Assembly: GCA_963971425.1 (NCBI GenBank)
Contig: OZ020519.1
Location: 22,360,786 to 22,424,785, forward strand
DNA length: 64,000 bases
Reading direction: 5' to 3'
Source of the DNA: Bryoerythrophyllum caledonicum
Taxonomy: Eukaryota > Streptophyta > Bryopsida > Pottiales > Pottiaceae
Each line of letters opens with the position of its first letter. Within the stretch, counting starts at the first letter, position 1. The notes below the pieces were generated by a model. The model made no database searches. It saw nothing but the letters and a program-made list of their open reading frames with translations, and was not told the DNA's origin. Shown here piece after piece: positions 39,282 to 52,300 of the stretch. Position numbers and translations under genes: made by a program.

Positions 39282-39967
39282 AACAGCGTAATCAGCCAGT
39301 AGACAAAGTAAGGCAGTACGTACCTGTGCTTCGAAAAAATCTGGTCTGGATCCTAAGCTGCAGCCAGTACCAAGGAGATTCGACCCAAAAGCGCCTCGGA
39401 CAATGGTGCCGTAGCCAACCTGCACGGGGAGTGAAGAAAATCAGCAAACATTGCCGCCAGCCCAAAGACGAAGACACCGACACGACCAACACGAATCAAG
39501 ACTACGTAAACACCGAAGAGGACAATAGAGGAAGGAGCTGCAGGACGAAACCAAGCAAGAAGTAGCTGTCAAGGAAAGAAGGGACTCTACACAAGCAAGA
39601 CGAAGCCGAAGAACCGCAGAGGCCACCCAAGAAGACCGAAACCAAGACAAAGTCGAAGACGAGCCGCGAGACCAGAAACAGGAGGCAGGAAGCAAGAGAG
39701 CGCGAGAAAGAGGCTGCAGCAACAAGCCCGAGCGAGAGAACCCAACACAACAAGACCAAGACACATCAAGATCAGGAACGAGCAACAACAAGACCAAGAA
39801 AAAGAAGTCCGAAGAAGCGAAGACCGAAAACAAACAATCAGGAGCAGCGAGGTCAAGAGCGAGTACGCGAAACGAAGAACCAAGTGCACCAAGACCAAGA
39901 ACGCGAAACATACACTGCAAGATCAGGAATCGCGAGGCGGCTAACGGGAGGCAGCGAGACCAAGTGG
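39282..39967 (+). other. LINE 5' region, purine-rich, no supported ORF
   Basis: The plus strand is rich in A and G (AGAAGA-, CGAAGAC-like words). The reverse strand is therefore open over long distances, but the implied proteins are low-complexity Leu/Ser/Cys strings and look like shadows. Probably 5' untranslated region. Confidence 0.4.
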
Positions 39968-41854
39968 ATGTCAGCAGGAACATTTCCCCGCAGCCACAGC
40001 CCCGGGCGAGAGCAGAGGAGCGAACCCCCGAAGCCACAACCCCGGGCGATTACGAGGAGCGACCCCCCGAAGCCACAGCCCCGGGCGAGAGCAGAACGCG
40101 CAAACAAGACTTATACGGGCCTCCCCTGCTCGGCGAGAGCGGGGCTCCTCCTGAATTGGGCCGAAAGAACTGCAGGAGAGGCGGAGGTCAGAACTATACG
40201 GGACGCCCCAGTGGCAAACGGCTACCCAGCCAGCATGGCAGGGAGCTCCAGAAGGACTGGCTGCAGCAGCGTCGACATGAAAGGCCTGGAGGAAAGTCCC
40301 ATCAGAGCACCATCAAAGGGTACAACGGAAGCCAGCAGCCACAAGAAGAACAAAGTCTCGATCACGCAAAAAGGTAAGTCACTACACGAAACAGACTCAC
40401 CAAAGTTCAAATTTTGGTTGGGTTTCCAGGACATGGAGACCTTGGCATTGGAGGACGGTGCCGAAGAATTGTACAGCAGTGAATCCATAGAGGACATGGT
40501 CACACGTGGAATGAAGGCGGAGGAAGCTATGGAGGTATGCAACGCAAGAGTGGCCTTCCCCCGAATTCCACAACTACTTTACCCCATGGTAACAAGCGAT
40601 AGAATGGGCCAACATTTCAACATCACCCAAGTCTCCGTTGACATCAAAACTAGTGAGAATTCTGGCCTCTCCCTTGACTTTCACATTGCCATCTTCTTTA
40701 AAACACCTAAAAACCCACTCATGCATGATGTAGTTAAAAAAATGGTTGTAGAGAGACTAAAGAAAATGAACATAGCCTTAGGAGAAGACCTTATCGATCC
40801 GATTGCTATCCAATGCTTAAGCATTAAGAATGGGAAAACTAAAGGGATTTGGGCCGATAACATTAAGTTGCATCTCGTCAAACCGGAGATTGATGGGCTA
40901 ATGCTACTCAAAGGCCTTAGGCCTTTTATTCTAACCATTGATGATGAATGTGTAGTTGGAAAAGTGTGCAAGTCCTATCATGGCATTGCCAAAGGATCTA
41001 ACCTCTCCGTGAAGATCAAGTGTGACACTTTGATAGGAGTTTCCGCTCAAGTAGTGTTTAAGGAGATACTTGGCAATAGCTTCCATCGTGGCCACAAGTT
41101 TGAGATCTCGGGCGTCCAAAAAATGATTGGAGACTCACATGCCTTTGTCATTGCCACTACCCCCCAACAAGTGAAGAAAATATTAGCACACCACATCACC
41201 ATGCGAAGTGAAGTCTTGGAAGCAAGACAAGTCCTTGACACCAAAGGACCAAAAGGTATTTTCGAAACCAAAGCCCGAAAAGATGCTTTAACACTCACCT
41301 TATCTCCCCTTCCTATTCGTTTGGACCTCGCAAACACTACCCATGAAATATACAAAGTCATGGGAGGTACTAATGTGCGCTCTATTTGGTTTCATAGGGA
41401 CAATGGCACTCACCACAATGGTAGTGCAAACGTCCTTTGTGCTAACCCAATAGTGTATAGGACTTTTGTGAAGAAGACTCACAAAATAGGGGGGAACTTT
41501 GTGGATTTCGCACCACATAGAAGAAGCTTAGAGGGGGTAGACCCTCCCACCGCCGAACAAGTGAAGGAGTTTGGGTTTGAAGACATCAACACCGCAATTG
41601 TCAACACCATCACCACGTTCAACATGCAAGAGAAGAATGAGCACATCACCAAGAAGGACATGGTGGAGTTATTGGAAGAGAACAACAAGAAACTAAGACA
41701 AGAGAGCAAGGAGTACACCGACAAACTACACGACGAATTGAAGACTCAAATGGAAGGCATCCAAGAATCAATGTTAGCCACCCTCCAAAGTATGAGAGCA
41801 TTCACGGGAAGAATCAACAATCCAAGAATTGAAGAAAACCGGCCAAACATGTGA
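39968..41854 (+). CDS. LINE ORF1 protein with C-terminal coiled coil
   Basis: The first ATG in the frame is 39968; the frame is open from 39884 and ends at TGA 41852. The first 150 residues are basic, Pro/Gly/Ser-rich and partly made of repeats, so a later ATG (for example 40434, METLALEDG) is also possible. The middle is a well-structured globular stretch (FHIAIFFKTPKNPLMHD, DDECVVGKVCKSYHG) that I cannot assign. The last 80 residues (KKDMVELLEENNKKLRQESK and following) have strong heptad character and should form a coiled coil, as in many LINE ORF1 proteins that bind RNA as oligomers. Base composition is normal here and changes abruptly just after the stop. The frame is intact. Confidence 0.65.
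   Translation: MSAGTFPRSHSPGREQRSEPPKPQPRAITRSDPPKPQPRARAERANKTYTGLPCSARAGLLLNWAERTAGEAEVRTIRDAPVANGYPASMAGSSRRTGCSSVDMKGLEESPIRAPSKGTTEASSHKKNKVSITQKGKSLHETDSPKFKFWLGFQDMETLALEDGAEELYSSESIEDMVTRGMKAEEAMEVCNARVAFPRIPQLLYPMVTSDRMGQHFNITQVSVDIKTSENSGLSLDFHIAIFFKTPKNPLMHDVVKKMVVERLKKMNIALGEDLIDPIAIQCLSIKNGKTKGIWADNIKLHLVKPEIDGLMLLKGLRPFILTIDDECVVGKVCKSYHGIAKGSNLSVKIKCDTLIGVSAQVVFKEILGNSFHRGHKFEISGVQKMIGDSHAFVIATTPQQVKKILAHHITMRSEVLEARQVLDTKGPKGIFETKARKDALTLTLSPLPIRLDLANTTHEIYKVMGGTNVRSIWFHRDNGTHHNGSANVLCANPIVYRTFVKKTHKIGGNFVDFAPHRRSLEGVDPPTAEQVKEFGFEDINTAIVNTITTFNMQEKNEHITKKDMVELLEENNKKLRQESKEYTDKLHDELKTQMEGIQESMLATLQSMRAFTGRINNPRIEENRPNM
39993..40095 (+). repeat. GC-rich tandem repeat of about 35-40 bp, 2.5 units
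   Basis: The phrase CCACAGCCCCGGGCGA followed by GAGGAGCGAACCCCCGAAG repeats with small changes. In the ORF1 frame it encodes Pro-Gly-Arg-rich repeats. It is much more GC-rich than its surroundings. Confidence 0.8.
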
Positions 41855-43500
41855 GCTCCAAGGACTACATAGTAAAACACATCTCTTCTATAGCATACTA
41901 CAAAATACGATACGAAGTAGTGTATTCATTTAGAAATATAATTAAATACATACTAGCATACAAGTACATAAATACAAAACAAATACACCATACTAAAAAC
42001 TATACACAAAACATACACATCACTAGAATATGTAGACTATACCACATAGGGTACCGTACAAAAAATATATATTGTATTCAATACTACATTCAATACAAAT
42101 ACTATACCGAACACCTCAAAGACTACTCTCAAGACTATACAAATAATTACTATCTATACAAAAGGATACTTTGTAAAATATACACAAAACTCAAATTAAC
42201 ACCATACTATACGACATTTAGTACAAAATATGATAATAATACTAGTACATACACCGCTAACTATAGTGATACATCTACGAATACAAATATCGGTACAAAT
42301 GCTAATACGTATATCCGTTCGTATATTGGTATGATCCCTGATAAATATATTGGTACATATATGTATACTAATACGTACACTAATAAATATACCGAAATAC
42401 ATACTAATACCAATACTAATACAAATACCGGTCCAAATACTAATACAAATACTAACATAAATACTAACATAAATATGGACACACACACCAAGACAAATAT
42501 TGAGGCACATACCCATACAAACTTACATATAAATACTAACATAAAACCAAACACAACTACATATATACAAAAATATACAAAGACAACCACACACCATCAA
42601 AAAAAAAACAACAACAACAACAACAACAACAACAAAAACAACAACATATACAAAGACGAATACACACAATCAAATAAACAAAAAAGAAAATACCAAAGCC
42701 ACATACAAAACCAAAAAACTCTAAAACAAAACTTCAAACCCATCTATTACAAAACACTAATACTAAATATGTATACCAATATAAAACCAAATACAACCAC
42801 ATCTACACACCCAATATACAAAGACAACCACACAACATCAAAAAATACATACATACACACATACAAAGAAGAATACATACAATCAAATAAACAAAAAATA
42901 AAAAACCAAAGCCACATACAAAAACAAAAAATTCCAAAACAAAACAAAAAACCCATCTACTACAAGATACTAACACTAAATGGAAAAGACATAGAGACTA
43001 ACCCAAGACCCATGCCAAACGCTCTAAAAAGGCACCTTGCCTTGCACAAAAAGAATACCAAAACATATTTTTTACCAAACACCATAAAACTACAACCCGA
43101 ATACGTGCACATAGCCCAAAAACGTGCCCCCCTCTCTAAAACAACACACACAACACATCAACAATATAATGACACATACCCATTTATCGCCATATACTTA
43201 AATCAAAATAATAAACACCCTCCATCCCACATTTTTTACGCCCTAGGAAACCATGAAAAATCAATATACAAGGTATCATACGTTTTTTTTTTACATAGTC
43301 AAGCCATACCTTCCTCAATTAAAACAATAAAACTAAAATTCCCCTACCTCCCTAACACTAGTATCAATGAATCAATGAATATAAATAATGAAATACATAC
43401 TGATACAAACACCAAAACAAACACCTTTTTAAAACCCAACATAAATAGTAACACAACTGCATACGAAAGTGACTTAAATACCCCGCAAATACCAACATAA
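41851..43500 (+). CDS. Low-complexity LINE ORF with degenerate 2A segment
   Basis: This frame overlaps the ORF1 stop in the -1 frame and has no good ATG at its start. It encodes Tyr/Lys/Ile/Asn-rich sequence, then long Asn-Thr repeats and a poly-Asn run, then two tandem copies of a segment (about 42538-42768 and 42769-42985) ending KPIYYK. After the second copy comes GKDIETNPRPMPNALKRH, which parallels the intact GGDIETNPGPMPNILKRH of the next ORF. The stretch 42988-43370 is a shortened diverged duplicate of 43857-44410. Its low complexity means that part of it may be non-coding. It could join ORF2 by a -1 shift near 43473-43500. Confidence 0.4.
   Translation: MSSKDYIVKHISSIAYYKIRYEVVYSFRNIIKYILAYKYINTKQIHHTKNYTQNIHITRICRLYHIGYRTKNIYCIQYYIQYKYYTEHLKDYSQDYTNNYYLYKRILCKIYTKLKLTPYYTTFSTKYDNNTSTYTANYSDTSTNTNIGTNANTYIRSYIGMIPDKYIGTYMYTNTYTNKYTEIHTNTNTNTNTGPNTNTNTNINTNINMDTHTKTNIEAHTHTNLHINTNIKPNTTTYIQKYTKTTTHHQKKNNNNNNNNNKNNNIYKDEYTQSNKQKRKYQSHIQNQKTLKQNFKPIYYKTLILNMYTNIKPNTTTSTHPIYKDNHTTSKNTYIHTYKEEYIQSNKQKIKNQSHIQKQKIPKQNKKPIYYKILTLNGKDIETNPRPMPNALKRHLALHKKNTKTYFLPNTIKLQPEYVHIAQKRAPLSKTTHTTHQQYNDTYPFIAIYLNQNNKHPPSHIFYALGNHEKSIYKVSYVFFLHSQAIPSSIKTIKLKFPYLPNTSINESMNINNEIHTDTNTKTNTFLKPNINSNTTAYESDLNTPQIPT
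42988..43014 (+). other. Degenerate 2A motif DIETNPRP
   Basis: The codons read D-I-E-T-N-P-R-P-M. The key Gly of NPGP is Arg (AGA at 43006-43008; one G-to-A change from GGA). Ribosome skipping at 2A needs NPG|P, so this copy should be inactive. Confidence 0.8.
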
Positions 43501-45860
43501 ACCCATATACAAATATCTTTACACATAATATTCACATATTCAAAAAACCAAACACAATCACAAAAATAGACAAACAAACATACACACACCTACACATCAT
43601 TAATAAAACAACAACCACTAAACAAATAAACACACAAGCACAAAACTGGTTAAAAATCAATTCAACTACACCCACTATAGAAATCAATAACAAAAAATTC
43701 ATTACCCACATACTAAATATAAACAACCACCTCCCGCCAAACAAACAAGACCTTAATAACATAACTAAGTCTAAAACAACTACTATACAAAAAATAAAAA
43801 CGCTAACATACAATACTAAACAAACACATAACAAACTCTTACTACTTCTAGGAGGAGACATAGAAACCAACCCCGGACCCATGCCAAATATACTAAAAAG
43901 GCACCCTACATCACACAAGAAAAATGCCAAAATATACTTCATACCTAATACCATAAAACTACAACCGGAATATGAACACATTGCAAAATCCTTTGCACCC
44001 TTTTTAAAAAACACACATACATTACACCACACACATAACACCACACACCCAAACATTGCCCAATACATACAACAAAAAAATACGGATCCACCTCCCGACA
44101 TTCTATATGCACTGATAATCACTACTCACCCAAACATCGATAAATGTAACCATCTCTTATACCCACAAAATTTGAACACAATTACATGGGCCAATACACT
44201 TCTACAAACTCTACAAAACTTACAAAATCCACCAGAACGACACATTTTCACTATACACCCGTATACTAAATTCCTAGTAGACAACCAAAATATTATAAAA
44301 CATGAGAACTCAATACATAAAAAATTATACGACTTCTTACATAGTCAAAACATACCACCCCCAAATAATATAATAAAACAAAAATTCCCTTACCTCCCTA
44401 ACAACCTCATAAACAAAACACTAAAATGTCTAGACCCTATACCAGAATACACCCACCCACCCACACCTCTTCCCTACATCCCTCCTCAAAATCAAAACAT
44501 TAGATCAAACCAAGAAAAAACATATATAATCACATGGAATGCCTCCTCACTAGACATTGCCCTTCTTAGCTTACAAACTTTAGTCACAAACACAGACACA
44601 CCACCAGCCCTTATTGTAATACAAGAAACAAAACTAACCGCCACAAAATCCACAAAATATACACAAAATTTATTTCAAAACTATAAACTCATCTTTAACA
44701 ATACACATACACTTACAAGATGCATGCAACAACGGAGACCATACACTCCGGGCCGAGGTGGCTTCCTTGCATTAATACACAAAAAATATACATTCCCAGG
44801 CAACATCAACAAAATCCCTACCCCAATGCACATATCACCATACATTCAAATAATCAAAATCGCTAATCACCCACTACAACCGTGGTTAATCTTTCACATG
44901 TATATGCCATCCCATCCTAAAGATACTAGATTTCTCTTAGATATACAAAACACTATTACATCCCAAATTAATAATAATCCCAATCATACATACCTATTAT
45001 GCGGAGACTTCAACAGAGACATAGCGTTAATTGGCCGCCAAAATGGAAACCATCACACCCCCCCTCAAAACCTAGATTACCAATGGCGTCGCTTCACAGA
45101 AAACTTAAACTTCACAAATATCATTACCGATACACAATTCTCTAAACATGGTGGCTATAATTACAGTGATTGGAGTCTAATAGATGGATTCTATATAAAT
45201 ACAAACAACAATACACAATGCACCTCCTCAACAAACAAAGATATTATTCTCAACTCGGACCACTCACCCGTACAATTGCACATCCCAAATAACACACTAA
45301 TTAGTAGAACTCCTATAACCCTAAACAAAGACACTATACGTATACTCAACCCCATCCCAAAATCCAACATAGAAAAATTCAACACAAAATTCTTCGAAGA
45401 AAACTCCGTACAAATAGACTCCCTCATAAACACTCTTGAAAATAATAGTCAATTAACACAAGCACAATGGCAAGAAGCATGCCACACCCTAGACAAACTC
45501 ATCAAAAAAATCTCTGACACACTAGAACAAACTTGTAGAGCACACCCAATACCTCAAATGACAAACAAAACTTCTCAACAATGCGGGTACCTACCCCGCA
45601 AACTCTCTAAAACTTGGAAACAACACTTAACCACATACCATACCATACGCAAAACCATTAGAATTGTAAAAAACAACCCTCAATGGCGTAACCACCCAAT
45701 ATACAATGAACTACTAACTCTACAACACATCCAAATCCCTACCCCGCCGCCCCCAGACTTTCCCCACGATACATGGATAAATGATATCGCGCTAATTGCA
45801 AAAAATGCCAACATACAAACCCGGAAAGTAATCACAAAATACACCAAAGAAAACATTTAA
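43473..45860 (+). pseudogene. LINE ORF2 N-terminal part: 2A peptide and APE endonuclease
   Basis: The frame is open from 43473 to a TAA at 45858. Residues 128-136 are GDIETNPGP (43854-43880), an intact class-1 2A motif preceded by KLLLLLG; the first Met of the frame directly follows at 43881. The APE-type endonuclease spans about 44520-45290 with TWNASS (Asn at 44538), QETKL (Glu at 44625), GDFN (45003-45014), SLIDGFY and NSDHSPV (45252-45269). All recognisable catalytic positions are present. The enzyme would nick target DNA to prime reverse transcription. The TAA at 45858 falls where Gln (CAA) fits, and a run of nine A at 45911-45919 marks a frameshift into the RT frame (reading KVFKNLESPPMD). 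In an intact relative this would be continuous with the RT. Confidence 0.85.
43854..43880 (+). other. Intact 2A ribosome-skipping motif GDIETNPG|P
   Basis: Codons for G-D-I-E-T-N-P-G-P run 43854-43880, directly before an ATG. It fits the 2A consensus D-(V/I)-E-x-N-P-G|P with the usual hydrophobic Leu run upstream. 2A motifs are known from the N-terminal part of some non-LTR retrotransposons (trypanosome L1Tc/ingi, animal CR1/L2-type elements). Confidence 0.88.
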
Positions 45861-45946
45861 AAAGCCATCTCAAAATACAGACAACTATACGAAATTAGCC
45901 CCAAAAAATTAAAAAAAAAGTCTTTAAAAACCTTGAATCCCCGCCA

Positions 45947-48019
45947 ATGGACTGTATCACAGATCAATATAATAATATTCTAACTAGCCTCGAAGACATT
46001 GCGAATGAAATATTTAACCAACAAACAAAAACCAATAGACCAACAGTACCAACATGTAATTATCAGCCACAACATACAATAGAATGTACATGTGCAGCAC
46101 GCCAATACCCATGGCATGACCTGGACGGATATACTCTTGACAAACGGGGCGAACCAGAAATTCCAATACATAAATACTTCAACAGAGCCACATACGACAC
46201 ATGCCTTCAAAATCTTGGAAATAATAAAGCCCCAGGCCCAGACCGCATACCAAACTCAATACTCAAAAACATGCCTCCAAGATTTCATAAACTTTTATTC
46301 CTATTCTTCTCTCACTGCTATAAACAAAAACAAATACCAAACTCATGGAAAACAAGCACAACAATTTTACTATACAAAAAAGGCGACTCGTCAATGCTAC
46401 CCAACCATAGGCCAATTGTACTAGCTAACACAATATATAAACTCTTTACCAGTACACTCACCTCCATATTATCCTCATACGGTGAAAAATTCAAAATCCT
46501 ACATGATAGTCAAGAAGGATTTAGAGCAGAGAGAAGTACCGCACGACAAATACAAACTATAATAGCCACGCTAGAAGACGCAAAATTTACTAACCAAGAT
46601 ATATACATACTATACGTGGACTTAAAAAATGCCTTTGGCTCAATTGACCATGCCCGACTTCTAGCAATAATGATAGACCTTGGGTATCCAAAAGATGCAA
46701 CTACACTTGTTGGAAACATCTATTCTCAATCATCTACTTGTTATACCGGTGAACACGTTGGAAAAACAAAACCTATACCCATCCAAAGAGGAACTATACA
46801 AGGGGACACCCTCAGCCCATACCTATTCATTATATTTTTAGAACCACTACTCAGATGGCTAGAAAGAGGCAATTACGGGTACACTTTTGGCACATCACAG
46901 GTCACAATAAACTCCGCCGCATACGCGGATGATCTAGCCACCATAACTAACAAAATCAAATCAATCCAGATACAACTAAACAAAATTGATAGATATTGTA
47001 AATGGGCCGGTATGGACGTAGGTGTCCCAAAATGTGCCGCTACCGGATGCCCAAACAAATCCAAATTGAACCCTACCACTTTCAAAGCCCTAATGTAAGC
47101 CTCGAACATCAATTACCGCAATCAACCGATCCCCATACTACACCAAAATGAACCATACATATACTTGGGTACAAACCTTGTTCCCTCACTAAAATGGAAA
47201 ATCCAAATCCACACCACAGCGACGAAACTCATCAAACAGTGCAAAGAACTAACAACATGCCCAACCACCATGAAACAAAAAATAAAAATGGTGGATACCG
47301 TACTACGCCCAGGGGTGGCATACAGTTTCTACAATGTACCATACTCTATACTAGCTATCAAAAAACTTGATAAAAAAATAATAGCCATACAAAAAACCAT
47401 ATGTGGACTACCAAAATGTATGTCAAATGCAATAACCCAACTTCCACATAACCTATTTGGACTAGAAGCTTTCTCCCTCAAAAACGCATATCTCCGATGT
47501 ATAGGCGAACAACTGCAAAATGCTTTAAACAATAAAGGAAGGCTTGGAAAAATATACATTGGACTAACTCATTATGTCCTTGCCCAATATGGTGGCACCG
47601 AAAACATACCCAGAATTAAAAAAGGTGACTGCTTAAGATCACCAATAACACGAACATTCTTCTCATTAAAACATATAGCTAAAGTCCACCTTAAAAGTAC
47701 ACTCCCAAACTTCCTCATTAATCCTACAACACTAGAAATACTATGGCGCCAAGAAACACTAAACCACAACACACTAAATGCCCAACTCTCCCAAAAGCTC
47801 CTACAAAAGCTCCTCTCAAAAAATATTTTTGAACTAAACCAAATTACTTTATCCAACGGCACACACATCATGAACAATGAGGACTTCAAAACCTACCATT
47901 TCACCCCATCCAAACTAATAAAAAACGCCCTAAATATTGCTAAACAACTATTTTGCCACCCTACTTGCCCCACTACATGTCACACTCCTTGTAACATACA
48001 TCCCTACTCACATACTTAA
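45947..48019 (+). pseudogene. LINE ORF2 reverse transcriptase and thumb region
   Basis: The RT shows NNKAPGPDRIPNSIL (motif 1), LYKKGD...NHRPIVLAN (motif 2), DSQEGFRAERST, VDLKNAFGSIDH (motif A), QGDTLSPYLFIIFLEPLL, and YADDLA (Asp codons at 46928-46933). These are the palm residues that copy element RNA into DNA. A TAA at 47096-47098 interrupts the frame just after the palm, between ALM and ASNINY, again where CAA would fit. The frame resumes to 48019 with the thumb and connector. Near 48010 the reading continues in another frame (ILKDSFITLNNS... to 48350), so there is a second frameshift. Confidence 0.87.
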
Positions 48020-50900
48020 AGATTCCTTCATCACCCTCAACAATAGCATCATCCCAAGAAACATCCCCACACCAATCAATCCCCCTAACCCTCCACATAC
48101 ACACCACCCTCGTCCCCCTACATACATCCCCAAAAACCCTACCACATATCCCATTAATAACATCATACGCCATAAACATATCCAACACACAGACACAAAT
48201 AACATACAAACTACCTACACAAAATATTTATGCCAATGGCAACACAATGATAATACATACAATAAATGGCTCCCTCAAAGAAACCTTTTTCCACGGCACG
48301 ATACCAATACCTCCACACATAACACCGAAAAATTAAAACAATACTACTAAATGATCCAAAACAAAATATACTCAGATATCATCCTTGCCCACCACCCACA
48401 AGAACAATTTTCAGACTCAAGATCCGTAACACCACCCATAATTATCCCACTCTTAAACATCTACACAACAGAATGCAACCCTGAAAATGATATCCTTACA
48501 TCCTCAAACACAATTCAAATAGATAACAATCAAGCACATCTATATGAAGAAAACGGCCGACATTTACACACCATCCCTGTTACCCGACTCCAATGGCTAT
48601 GGAATCAATATAATACAAAATTACAAACTCCTACAAACATCGAACCAACGACCCAACCCTTTGAAACCGAACTAATATGGCTCTACCAAAGGTATAAATA
48701 CCGAATACCAAAAACTGACCCCCTCAAAAATGCCCAATACACAATACCCACTCTCGTTTTAGACCCACTGATCTCATCCTTTAATATCGAGCAATCATAC
48801 TTTTCTTCCCCGGTCACATGTTCTACCAAACTAAAAAATTTCTACTCACCTTATGAAAGAGACAAAATATTTGGATCCATAGGAAAGGCCTTTGACTACA
48901 AATGGATCGGTAATGGCATAGCCCACCCCCACAACGAGAAGGACATGGAACAAGCCATACATTGGGCTAGACTTGCCGCCAAACACGATCCAATTAACAC
49001 AAAAACAATCATCATCACACCGAACAATAATTGGTACCAAAACAACAACCAACATCCAAATCCATTCCCAGATTCCCATATCATTGCATTATTTGAAGCA
49101 GACACAATACCATACGAAGAACCTACTATTCCACCCGAGCTAAAAAAACCCCGAATAGAGCCATCTATATTACAAATACTATGCGTCCATCATCAAAATC
49201 ATACCCTTGGTTCCCTAGAACAACTTGCGGAATTTACCTCCATAACAAACAATCTAAACATACACCGACTATACAAAAAACCGGCCCCACCAACACCCAT
49301 ACAAACCCCCGTAAACAAAAGTAAAAACTGGTCAAAACTAAACTATGTCAACAACACATTAAACTACTCCGTCATACCTCCCCCTCTTCCAAACTACCAA
49401 ACCCATACCACACCAAAATTTAACCCTACATACAGTTGTTACACCGATGGCTCCTTTAAACCACCAGAACAAATTAGCCCGGGCTCTTGGCGCAGAGAAA
49501 AAGCTGGCTATGGCATATGTAATTCTACCAAAGAAATTAAACTAGCCAAAAGACTTCATGGACTACAAAATATCCTCAGAGCAGAACTCATGGCCATCCA
49601 CAAAACACTACAAATCATCACAACAAAATTCAATGATGAACCCGCACATATATTCACCGATTGTATAAATGCCCTCTACCTACTTAATACTCAAATAACA
49701 CACCCTACCCTTCACAATAGCCACCCCGACCAAACCATATTAACATCAATGGTCCAAATGTTACAAAACCATACACAAATCACAACCCTCCACAAAGTGA
49801 GAGCCCATGCCAACATCGATGGCAACGAACAAGCAGACAAATTAGCAAAAGAAGGCCGAGAAAAAACACACAAAAATGCCAAAGACCCACACGAACATGC
49901 CCATGCCACCCCATACTACTTTCAAAAAGAAGATTGGCCTTCCAAAGAAGATACCCCCAACAAAGGCCCAATTAGATTTTTGGGCAAATATCTCAAAAAA
50001 CAAGACCTCTACAACAACCTTGACACAATTTCAGAAAATATTCCTAACATAGAAAAATGGACTAACAATAACGACATAGACAATGAACTCTCTACAAACT
50101 TTTGGAAAAACCCCATCATCTCAGACTCGCAAATAACATGCCTCATCAAATTCCGTACGGGTCAATATATGGGAAACTCTCGCAAACAACTCTTCTTTGG
50201 AATAGAAAGATTCCCATCCATAACATGTCCCATATGCCCCTCAACGGACCCCGACACATGGCTCTATGTCCTTCTCAAATGCCAAAACCACCACATACAC
50301 TCTCTAATTGTTAAAAGACATAATAAAGCGGTATGGGAAGTCCGAAAACTAATCACCTCCTACAATAAATCGAGATGTTTCATATTAATGAACGCCGGCA
50401 CTTATAATAATAATCCACAAGAGAATACGGTCCTCCCTTGGCTACTCCCATGCTCGTGTATGACCCAAAGATGTCATTGCAACGCTAGGCTCAAACCAGA
50501 CATCCATTGCGTTAAAGGTTTACCATATAATGACCCACCACCCGATAACATCAACCAAGAATATACCATTCAATTCATTGAATTCACATATTGCAACGAT
50601 AGATTTTCCCCGGAAACAATCCAAAATAAAATTGATAAATACCAACCCCTTATTGACGACATCGTCGCCCTCGGATGGAATGTCGACCCCCTTATTGTAA
50701 TCACATCCGGCGCTCGTGCCACCACCTTTATCCCATCTATGAAATCTCTAGAAGATACCTTCAAGATACCCATTGAAACAATTAAATCCTCCTTTAAAAA
50801 CATTAACACCATTGCTATTCAATATGCCATGTCCATTTTACTACACAAACGCAAAATCGAAAACAATCAAGCCCTCCCCGATACACAGGACCCCCCTTAA
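48020..50900 (+). pseudogene. LINE ORF2 C-terminal part: RNase H, zinc finger, RLE-like endonuclease
   Basis: Coding continues from about 48000 to a TAA at 48348-48350 (QYY*MIQ) and then 849 codons to 50900. RNase H carries YTDGS (Asp 49446), RAELMAI (Glu 49584), FTDCINAL (Asp 49659) and NIDGNEQAD (Asp 49818), the full catalytic set. A zinc-finger-like segment CPIC...WLYVLLKC...KRHNKAV follows at about 50226-50320; Tyr at 50265 stands where R2-type fingers have His. Then come paired Cys (CSCMTQRCHC), LKPD (50490-50501) and FIEFTYCND (Glu 50580), matching the K/R-P-D...D/E layout of restriction-like endonucleases, followed by KYQPLIDDI and VITSGARA. RLE assignment is by motif order only. Downstream to about 50935 is probably 3' untranslated region. 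Confidence 0.75.
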
Positions 50901-50935
50901 ATTCTCCCCCCACCTTGATTTATCATGGCTAGTTG

Positions 50936-52300
50936 GTTTTGAGATTTTCGACTAATTGCTTGATTTGTGGTTGATTCGTTGGCTAGCTGGTTAGTTAGTG
51001 GCTCGTTGGTTGGTTTGTGGTTCCTTGGCTACTTGTTACATAGTGTCTATCCTCGAGAGAGGGAAGTAGTTCCAGTTTACTAATTCCTTGTCCTGTGGGC
51101 ATGGTCTTAGAAGTGGAACGAACAGACACTTTATTCACGCCGGTCCCCTTCGAGAACCGGCATTCTTCTTCTTCTGCATGCAATTGCCTCAACTTAGCAA
51201 TAAATTAGCCAAAGATCTAAAATGTAATGAACAGGAAAATGCTTCTCAGCAGCGAGTTGGTTTTGCGCAATGGAATTTGCTTCTTGGAAGCCTCGTTAGT
51301 TTCATGGAGGAATACGTTAAGGGTGATGGTCGGCTAAACTAGCATGAAAAAATTGTCACAAAAGGTGTAGGGACAAGTCACAAGCCTTCTTTTGCTATCT
51401 AGTGTCAATGTGGGTTTGATTTTGGAATTCTTCTAATGGAATGTAATTTCTTACTTCAATAGCAATATGAAAATCCTAAAAAGTTAGAGTTCCGGCTCAT
51501 GATTTGGCCGGTAGAAGTATATCTTTCATTGCTACATACTTGTCACAGGTATCTCAAATCAGACAAAAATACTTTTTTTGAGAATTACATGAGGTAAAAT
51601 AATTTTAAAATTTTAGAAGACATTTATACCATAATGTGCTCCTACATTATAGTTGAAAATTCTAGATTCAAAACTTAATTTGACTTTTATTGGTAAAAAA
51701 AGTTATTTTTTCAAGAAGCCTAAATAAAAAATGAGTGTTGATTTTTGCTCCAGATTCTTATTCAACCTTCTTCAATATATAAATATATATCTTGATGCAT
51801 TTGGTGTTTTATAAAAAAGGTCTTTTTTCCATCATTTTCTTCATAACCTAATTTTTGTTGCCTTGATTCAACATATATACTACGTAGTACATTTGGTATA
51901 TTTTTAGTCTCTGCAGTATGCATATACTCATCTCGGGAAAGAATTGGGCCACCTACGGAACGACATGTGTTATGACAAGACAAAGTTAAAAAAATCAGCA
52001 CCTTGTTCAAGATATTTTCTGTTCACCTAACATTTTATTGGCCATGATTACTTCACACCTACTCAAAGGACGGTTGGCATTCAACAATGATTTAGCAAAG
52101 GGCTCCAAAACAAATATACTACGGAGTATATATTTTTGTCCAAAAGTGAGTCACCTTAGTGGACTTCTACCCTTAAGGATACATTTTTACATATCATGCC
52201 AAGTTTATACTAATTTTAGGTCGTTCAAAGAGAGTGGATTTTGTCGAAGGTGCTTAATCAATGGAAGCCTCCCTGACATCGAGGAGCAAATGCTGGCTAA
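50936..52300. other. Intergenic DNA downstream of the LINE; no recognised gene
   Basis: The stretch 50930-51030 is rich in GGTTGGTTxGTGG-like words and may be the LINE 3' tail. A frame at 51088-51342 ends in a plausible soluble peptide but matches nothing that I know. Short near-palindromes with TACGTAGTA and TACGGAGTA occur at 51880 and 52120. Confidence 0.4.

Follow-up and report, generated by a model that had tools for sequence, protein, structure and literature searches.

The window analysed here, a 64,000-nucleotide stretch of Bryoerythrophyllum caledonicum (contig OZ020519.1, positions 22,360,786 to 22,424,785 of the forward strand), contains a copy of a long interspersed nuclear element (LINE) that spans about 39.5 kb to 51.18 kb of the window. 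The element very probably is a LINE-type retrotransposon with two endonucleases, an APE endonuclease and a restriction-like endonuclease (RLE), and the window copy a decayed representative of a young, multi-copy family. The second open reading frame (ORF2) of the element is arranged in the order APE, reverse transcriptase (RT), chromodomain-like fold, PCIF1-derived domain, RNase H, and a unit of CCHC finger and RLE. The features are as follows.

39566-41851, forward strand: ORF1, a stop-to-stop frame with homologous ORF1 in copies L009, L011 and L019
41833-43497, forward strand: low-complexity 5′ part of the ORF2 region, with a -1 frame overlap with ORF1
43851-43880, forward strand: 2A motif GGDIETNPGP, located by script, with D.E.NPGP in relatives
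44532-45269, forward strand: APE endonuclease domain, from motifs, relatives and a near-cutoff Pfam match
46226-47095, forward strand: RT (KAPGPD 46226, YADD 46922-46933; Pfam RVT_1 5.8e-27)
48147-48347, forward strand: chromodomain-like region, from profile matches to chromodomain chains, a model and VIA-align
48444-49199, forward strand: PCIF1/CAPAM-derived methyltransferase-fold domain, with AHPHN at the motif IV position (48921-48935)
49434-49859, forward strand: RNase H (Pfam RNase_H, PF00075, 4.8e-13, residues 362-503 of the 48351 frame)
50226-50294, forward strand: CCHC-type finger, from motifs and relatives
50316-50726, forward strand: RLE (RHN, KPD, E, K..KY), from predicted fold and conserved motifs
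50901-51175, forward strand: 3′ untranslated region with a hairpin at 51139-51161 followed by a TTC-rich tail at its end, from script and comparison of copies

The initial annotation had placed the element at 44520-50900, where it does lie, but the true span is longer and includes ORF1 at its 5′ side and a 3′ end at about 51175. The view that a single element carries the full domain set was borne out, but the status of the window copy as a decayed member of a young family had been missed; similarly, the domain list was correct as far as it was given but overlooked the chromodomain-like and PCIF1-like domains. In-frame stops and shifts of frame break ORF2 of the window copy into several pieces at about 43.5-48.35 kb, a stretch that is open in copies elsewhere in the genome, and these open copies need no alternative genetic code. 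The genome searched comprised 437 Mb in 894 contigs, and 104 RT places were scored among 5213 first-look candidates. The 103 other places showed 94-95% identity to the window RT, and an open frame of 2809 amino acids was common to 15 of the 104. The structure of the copies was read from 12 stretches of six copies, in which ORF1 is followed by an overlapping ORF2, a stretch of low complexity that is poly-Q in L009 and L015, the 2A motif, about 200 further residues, the APE domain, the RT and the remaining domains.

The APE motifs reported previously were placed by script (TWNASS 44532, QETK 44622, GDFN 45003, SDHSP 45255), and Pfam Exo_endo_phos matched this region at 7.6e-05 with 23 bits, just under the cutoff of 24.5. 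The RT, for which the PDB matches were R2 and L1, and the RNase H, which runs from CYTDGS at 49437 to GNEQADK at 49821, likewise were as described, as was the C-terminal series of an R2-like finger, RHN and KPD...E (CPIC 50226, RHN 50316, KPDI 50493, IEF 50577). The C-terminal region modelled as an R2-type PD-(D/E)XK finger-nuclease, with no unrelated fold found, and structure comparison matched the predicted fold to the finger-RLE region of R2. The conserved H of the finger is Y in the window copy. Among relatives, the finger residues are kept as C in 29/29, C in 30/30, H in 33/34 and C in 34/34 proteins, and the RLE residues as R in 33/34, H in 32/34, P in 29/34, D in 33/34 and E in 30/34. 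The C-terminal motifs thus are more than chance occurrences, because they are conserved in relatives and the fold matches that of R2. The reading of the element as a dual-endonuclease LINE accordingly is supported.

Three protein searches yielded 112 proteins, mostly from ENA or JGI, including one from the green alga Cymbomonas (P0061), and a scan of viral contigs with the ORF of the element produced no relative. An unrooted RT tree of 74 rows, from which the partial RTs of P0001, P0084 and P0102 were left out, placed the window RT in a clade of 41 rows with support of 98/95 (98/97 with four rows removed). R2 and other RLE-only rows formed their own group (17 rows, 99/96), as did the L1-like rows (11 rows, 99/98). 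The clade is not one with an unrelated C-terminal domain, as the same RLE was present in 32 of its 40 outside members. APE was detected in 35/40 (more than 100 amino acids long in 33 of these) and PCIF1 in 35/40, 33 of them by the first-pass profile. APE, RT, PCIF1 and RLE recur jointly in distant relatives, all four being found in 29 of the 40 proteins. The first-pass results, for which P0042 was included in the profile, are the safer ones because the iterated profiles were trained on the same proteins that were scored; P0039 is labelled PCIF1-positive on the tree though its sequence ends before that domain. The five members without PCIF1 stop 300-608 amino acids past the RT, the usual RT-PCIF1 spacing being 391-1004, and three further members lacking RLE stop 73-207 amino acids past PCIF1, a distance that is otherwise 333 or more. 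Where a full APE is missing, the protein starts 40-482 amino acids ahead of the RT; the exception is P0083, with 706 residues in this position and no APE match. In separate observations, P0066 contains a C5 DNA methylase segment at residues 2004-2077, and P0016, labelled as a protein of an archaeal (Nitrosocosmicus) metagenome-assembled genome, belongs to this LINE family and probably is eukaryotic contamination of that assembly.

Selection was assessed from ratios of nonsynonymous to synonymous substitution (dN/dS) pooled over five open C-terminal halves and four N-terminal halves, in pairs that are not independent; L020 (near L012), L015 and L019 were excluded from the sets. The C-terminal values were 0.02 for RT, 0.13 for the chromodomain-like region, 0.15 for RNase H, 0.21 for the PCIF1-like domain and 0.25 for RLE, and the N-terminal values were 0.14 for APE, 0.19 from 2A to APE and 0.54 for the low-complexity leader. 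These ratios point to purifying selection on the two nucleases as well as on the two extra domains. The account that we lean towards, with some reserve, is that a large, old dual-endonuclease clade captured a PCIF1 methyltransferase domain once and kept it, with a swappable chromodomain/PHD slot ahead of it, so that the element would bring along both a recogniser of RNA ends or adenine and a means of targeting chromatin; the catalytic motif would have changed to NPEY, and in the window copy to AHPHN.

An evenly poised question is whether the element is instead a plain Dualen/RandI member, in which case published members already would carry unrecognized PCIF1-like and reader domains and only the annotation would be new. 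The Dualen/RandI LINEs of Chlamydomonas and other green algae are described as having APE, RLE and RNase H (PMC4640811), which the window element matches with APE upstream of the RT, RLE downstream, and RNase H. Microsatellite-like 3′ repeats are reported in 8/8 RandI families (PMC3747384), and the window family ends in TTC-rich tails of varying length. In contrast, the available portions of these published descriptions mention no PCIF1-derived or chromodomain/PHD domains (PMC4640811, PMC3747384), the comparison being by description only. Against the identity of the two also stands P0086, which has no PCIF1-like match and is sister to the clade at 100/97, so both forms exist. This protein has APE, RNase H and RLE and, from its predicted domains, is a second form of dual-endonuclease LINE. 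The original Dualen description reportedly included a cysteine protease in the element. A Pfam scan of the window ORFs found no cysteine protease; sub-cutoff Josephin-like (cysteine protease) matches were seen upstream of APE in P0051 and P0068. The comparison with Dualen/RandI is plausible and the element probably belongs with that group, the likeness being to the accessible published description rather than to RT sequence. R2 is not known to carry an APE, an RNase H, a chromodomain or a PCIF1-like domain. The window element differs from R2-type LINEs in possessing APE, so that RLE is not its sole endonuclease, and in the separate position of its RT; as judged from the RT tree, it is not an R2 member.

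PCIF1 is an enzyme that methylates mRNA caps (cap-specific m6Am). The domain in the element resembles the PCIF1/CAPAM methyltransferase domain in both fold and sequence, and Pfam PF12237 (PCIF1_WW) matched the window at 8.6e-11, over the curated cutoff. The domain differs from PCIF1 in being embedded in a LINE ORF2 and in the lack of an intact NPPF motif, and for want of this motif we do not class it as a PCIF1 methyltransferase. We consider it unlikely that the domain has kept adenine-N6 methyltransferase activity and uses it to mark the capped RNA of the element or newly made DNA. The resemblance to PCIF1, the purifying selection on the domain, and retention of N, P and the aromatic residue (NPEY) in 19 of 34 distant proteins are compatible with such activity, and methyl marking was proposed earlier for the methyltransferases of other retrotransposons. 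However, intact NPPF was present in 0/34 of the distant proteins and the position reads AHPH in 22/25 close relatives, whereas NPPF mutation is reported to lower or abolish PCIF1 activity (PMC6318281, PMC10544176). Moreover, the aligned portion was mainly residues 423-668 of PCIF1, that is, the methyltransferase domain, and neither the WW domain nor the cap-binding helical domain was identified. A Foldseek search with a 765-residue model returned nothing that reached E 0.001. In the window family, the methyl-transfer chemistry of this PCIF1-derived domain probably is lost or changed.

In the model of a relative, the chromodomain-like region comprises three strands and a C-terminal helix, and in relatives of the window copy it has sequence similarity to chromodomains; the Pfam Chromo match is weak (best E 0.13, in only 2/24 relatives), and some relatives have a PHD finger instead. 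Both the PCIF1-like and the chromatin-reader-like domains apparently were borrowed from the host. Captured methyltransferases under purifying selection are described for SymbioLINE-Dnmt, SymbioDIRS-Dnmt3 and Dam-bearing DIRS elements (PMC5890265). As far as that account extends, these are cytosine enzymes in LINE ORF1 or DIRS, or Dam-like enzymes in DIRS, unlike the PCIF1-type domain inside ORF2 of the window LINE. Chromodomains within retroelement polyproteins are reported for chromoviruses and Chronos (PMC5348765), which are long terminal repeat (LTR) elements and not LINEs. Among the papers listed by a literature search, at the level of titles and opening lines of abstracts and mostly of open-access papers, none linked a domain encoded by a retrotransposon to PCIF1 or PF12237 and none described a LINE with this domain set, the chromodomains found being in LTR elements.

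It is very improbable that the C-terminal domain is a mere zinc-knuckle tail without nuclease: many LINEs have CCHC-type tails, and phmmer against the PDB with the C-terminal piece alone returned no R2 chain and nothing useful, but the fold match to the R2-type nuclease, together with the conserved PD...E residues, rules out a non-nuclease tail. The still more remote prospect that APE and RLE stem from two elements, brought together when one landed next to or inside the other, draws on the broken window frame between the two halves and is ruled out by the single long open frames of copies in the same genome, and by the presence of both nucleases within one protein in 29 of the 40 outside clade members.

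Insertion marks were sought with the 5′ end of one subfamily, which gave 23 exact copies (loci L081-L103). The 3′ end was recovered in 18 of these, the other five having none in the fetched stretch. Target duplications of at least 10 nt flanked 15 of the 18, one in a TA repeat (L102) and the other 14 of 10-13 nt. In a control that leaves out L102, 14/17 true pairs reached 10 nt compared to 4/272 mismatched pairs, none of which exceeded 10 nt. Of 31 pairs examined, 17 were without the subfamily 5′ end at up to three errors. TTC-rich tails varied in length between copies. An extra sequence of 4-44 nt separates the element from the 5′ duplication; it differs in each of the 15 copies and begins with a purine (A or G) in 15/15; two of these extra leaders were searched in the assembly and each was unique. 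Eleven of the 23 sequences upstream of the element end in ATC. Around position 3921 of L013, the stretch starts right at the TTC tail of the 3′ part of another copy, a junction hinting at insertion into element tails.

The ORF1 and the 2A motif mentioned in the initial annotation both proved real. ORF1 has homologues in other copies and a conserved core at about 40412-41407 (FWLGF ... WFHRDNG), and a Pfam scan of it gave no domain above its cutoff. The -1 overlap of ORF1 and ORF2 (41833-41851 in the window) is 55-121 nt in the five fetched copies showing both ORFs (L009, 3339-3453; L011, 4997-5117; L015; L017; L019), an arrangement that suggests frameshifting or re-initiation. D.E.NPGP is present in four of the five close relatives P0037-P0041, P0039 starting downstream of the motif. 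A second, decayed 2A-like motif (GKDIETNPRP, 42982-43011) lies upstream of the good one in the window, has a similar segment after it, and reads DMETNPRP in L009, L013, L015 and L017. Further 2A motifs occur in the clade member P0057 and in P0105, P0106, P0108 and P0110, which have APE and no RLE or PCIF1 match.

From the target duplications and the enzyme set we infer target-primed reverse transcription as the mode of movement, the two cuts being staggered by 10-13 bp. The 2A motif would release the ORF2 protein from its low-complexity leader. APE and RLE may each make one of the two strand cuts, since both nucleases are kept under selection. The chromodomain/PHD slot suggests that the modelled chromodomain, or the PHD finger of some relatives, may tether the complex to histones that carry modifications. 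Binding of adenine or of the RNA 5′ ends of the element transcript is a possible role of the PCIF1-derived domain, methyl transfer being doubtful in this family. LINEs are described as divided into RLE-bearing and APE-bearing elements, and the case for replacement of one nuclease by the other has been built on Dualen, the dual group (PMC4640811). With 29 diverse two-nuclease proteins, and a young family of which one genome holds many open copies, the strand cut by each nuclease becomes testable. The captured PCIF1 domain, selected yet with its catalytic motif rewritten, offers a clue that recognition of caps or adenine may have a new role in retrotransposition, and the slot for a chromodomain or PHD finger suggests that chromatin guides LINE integration.
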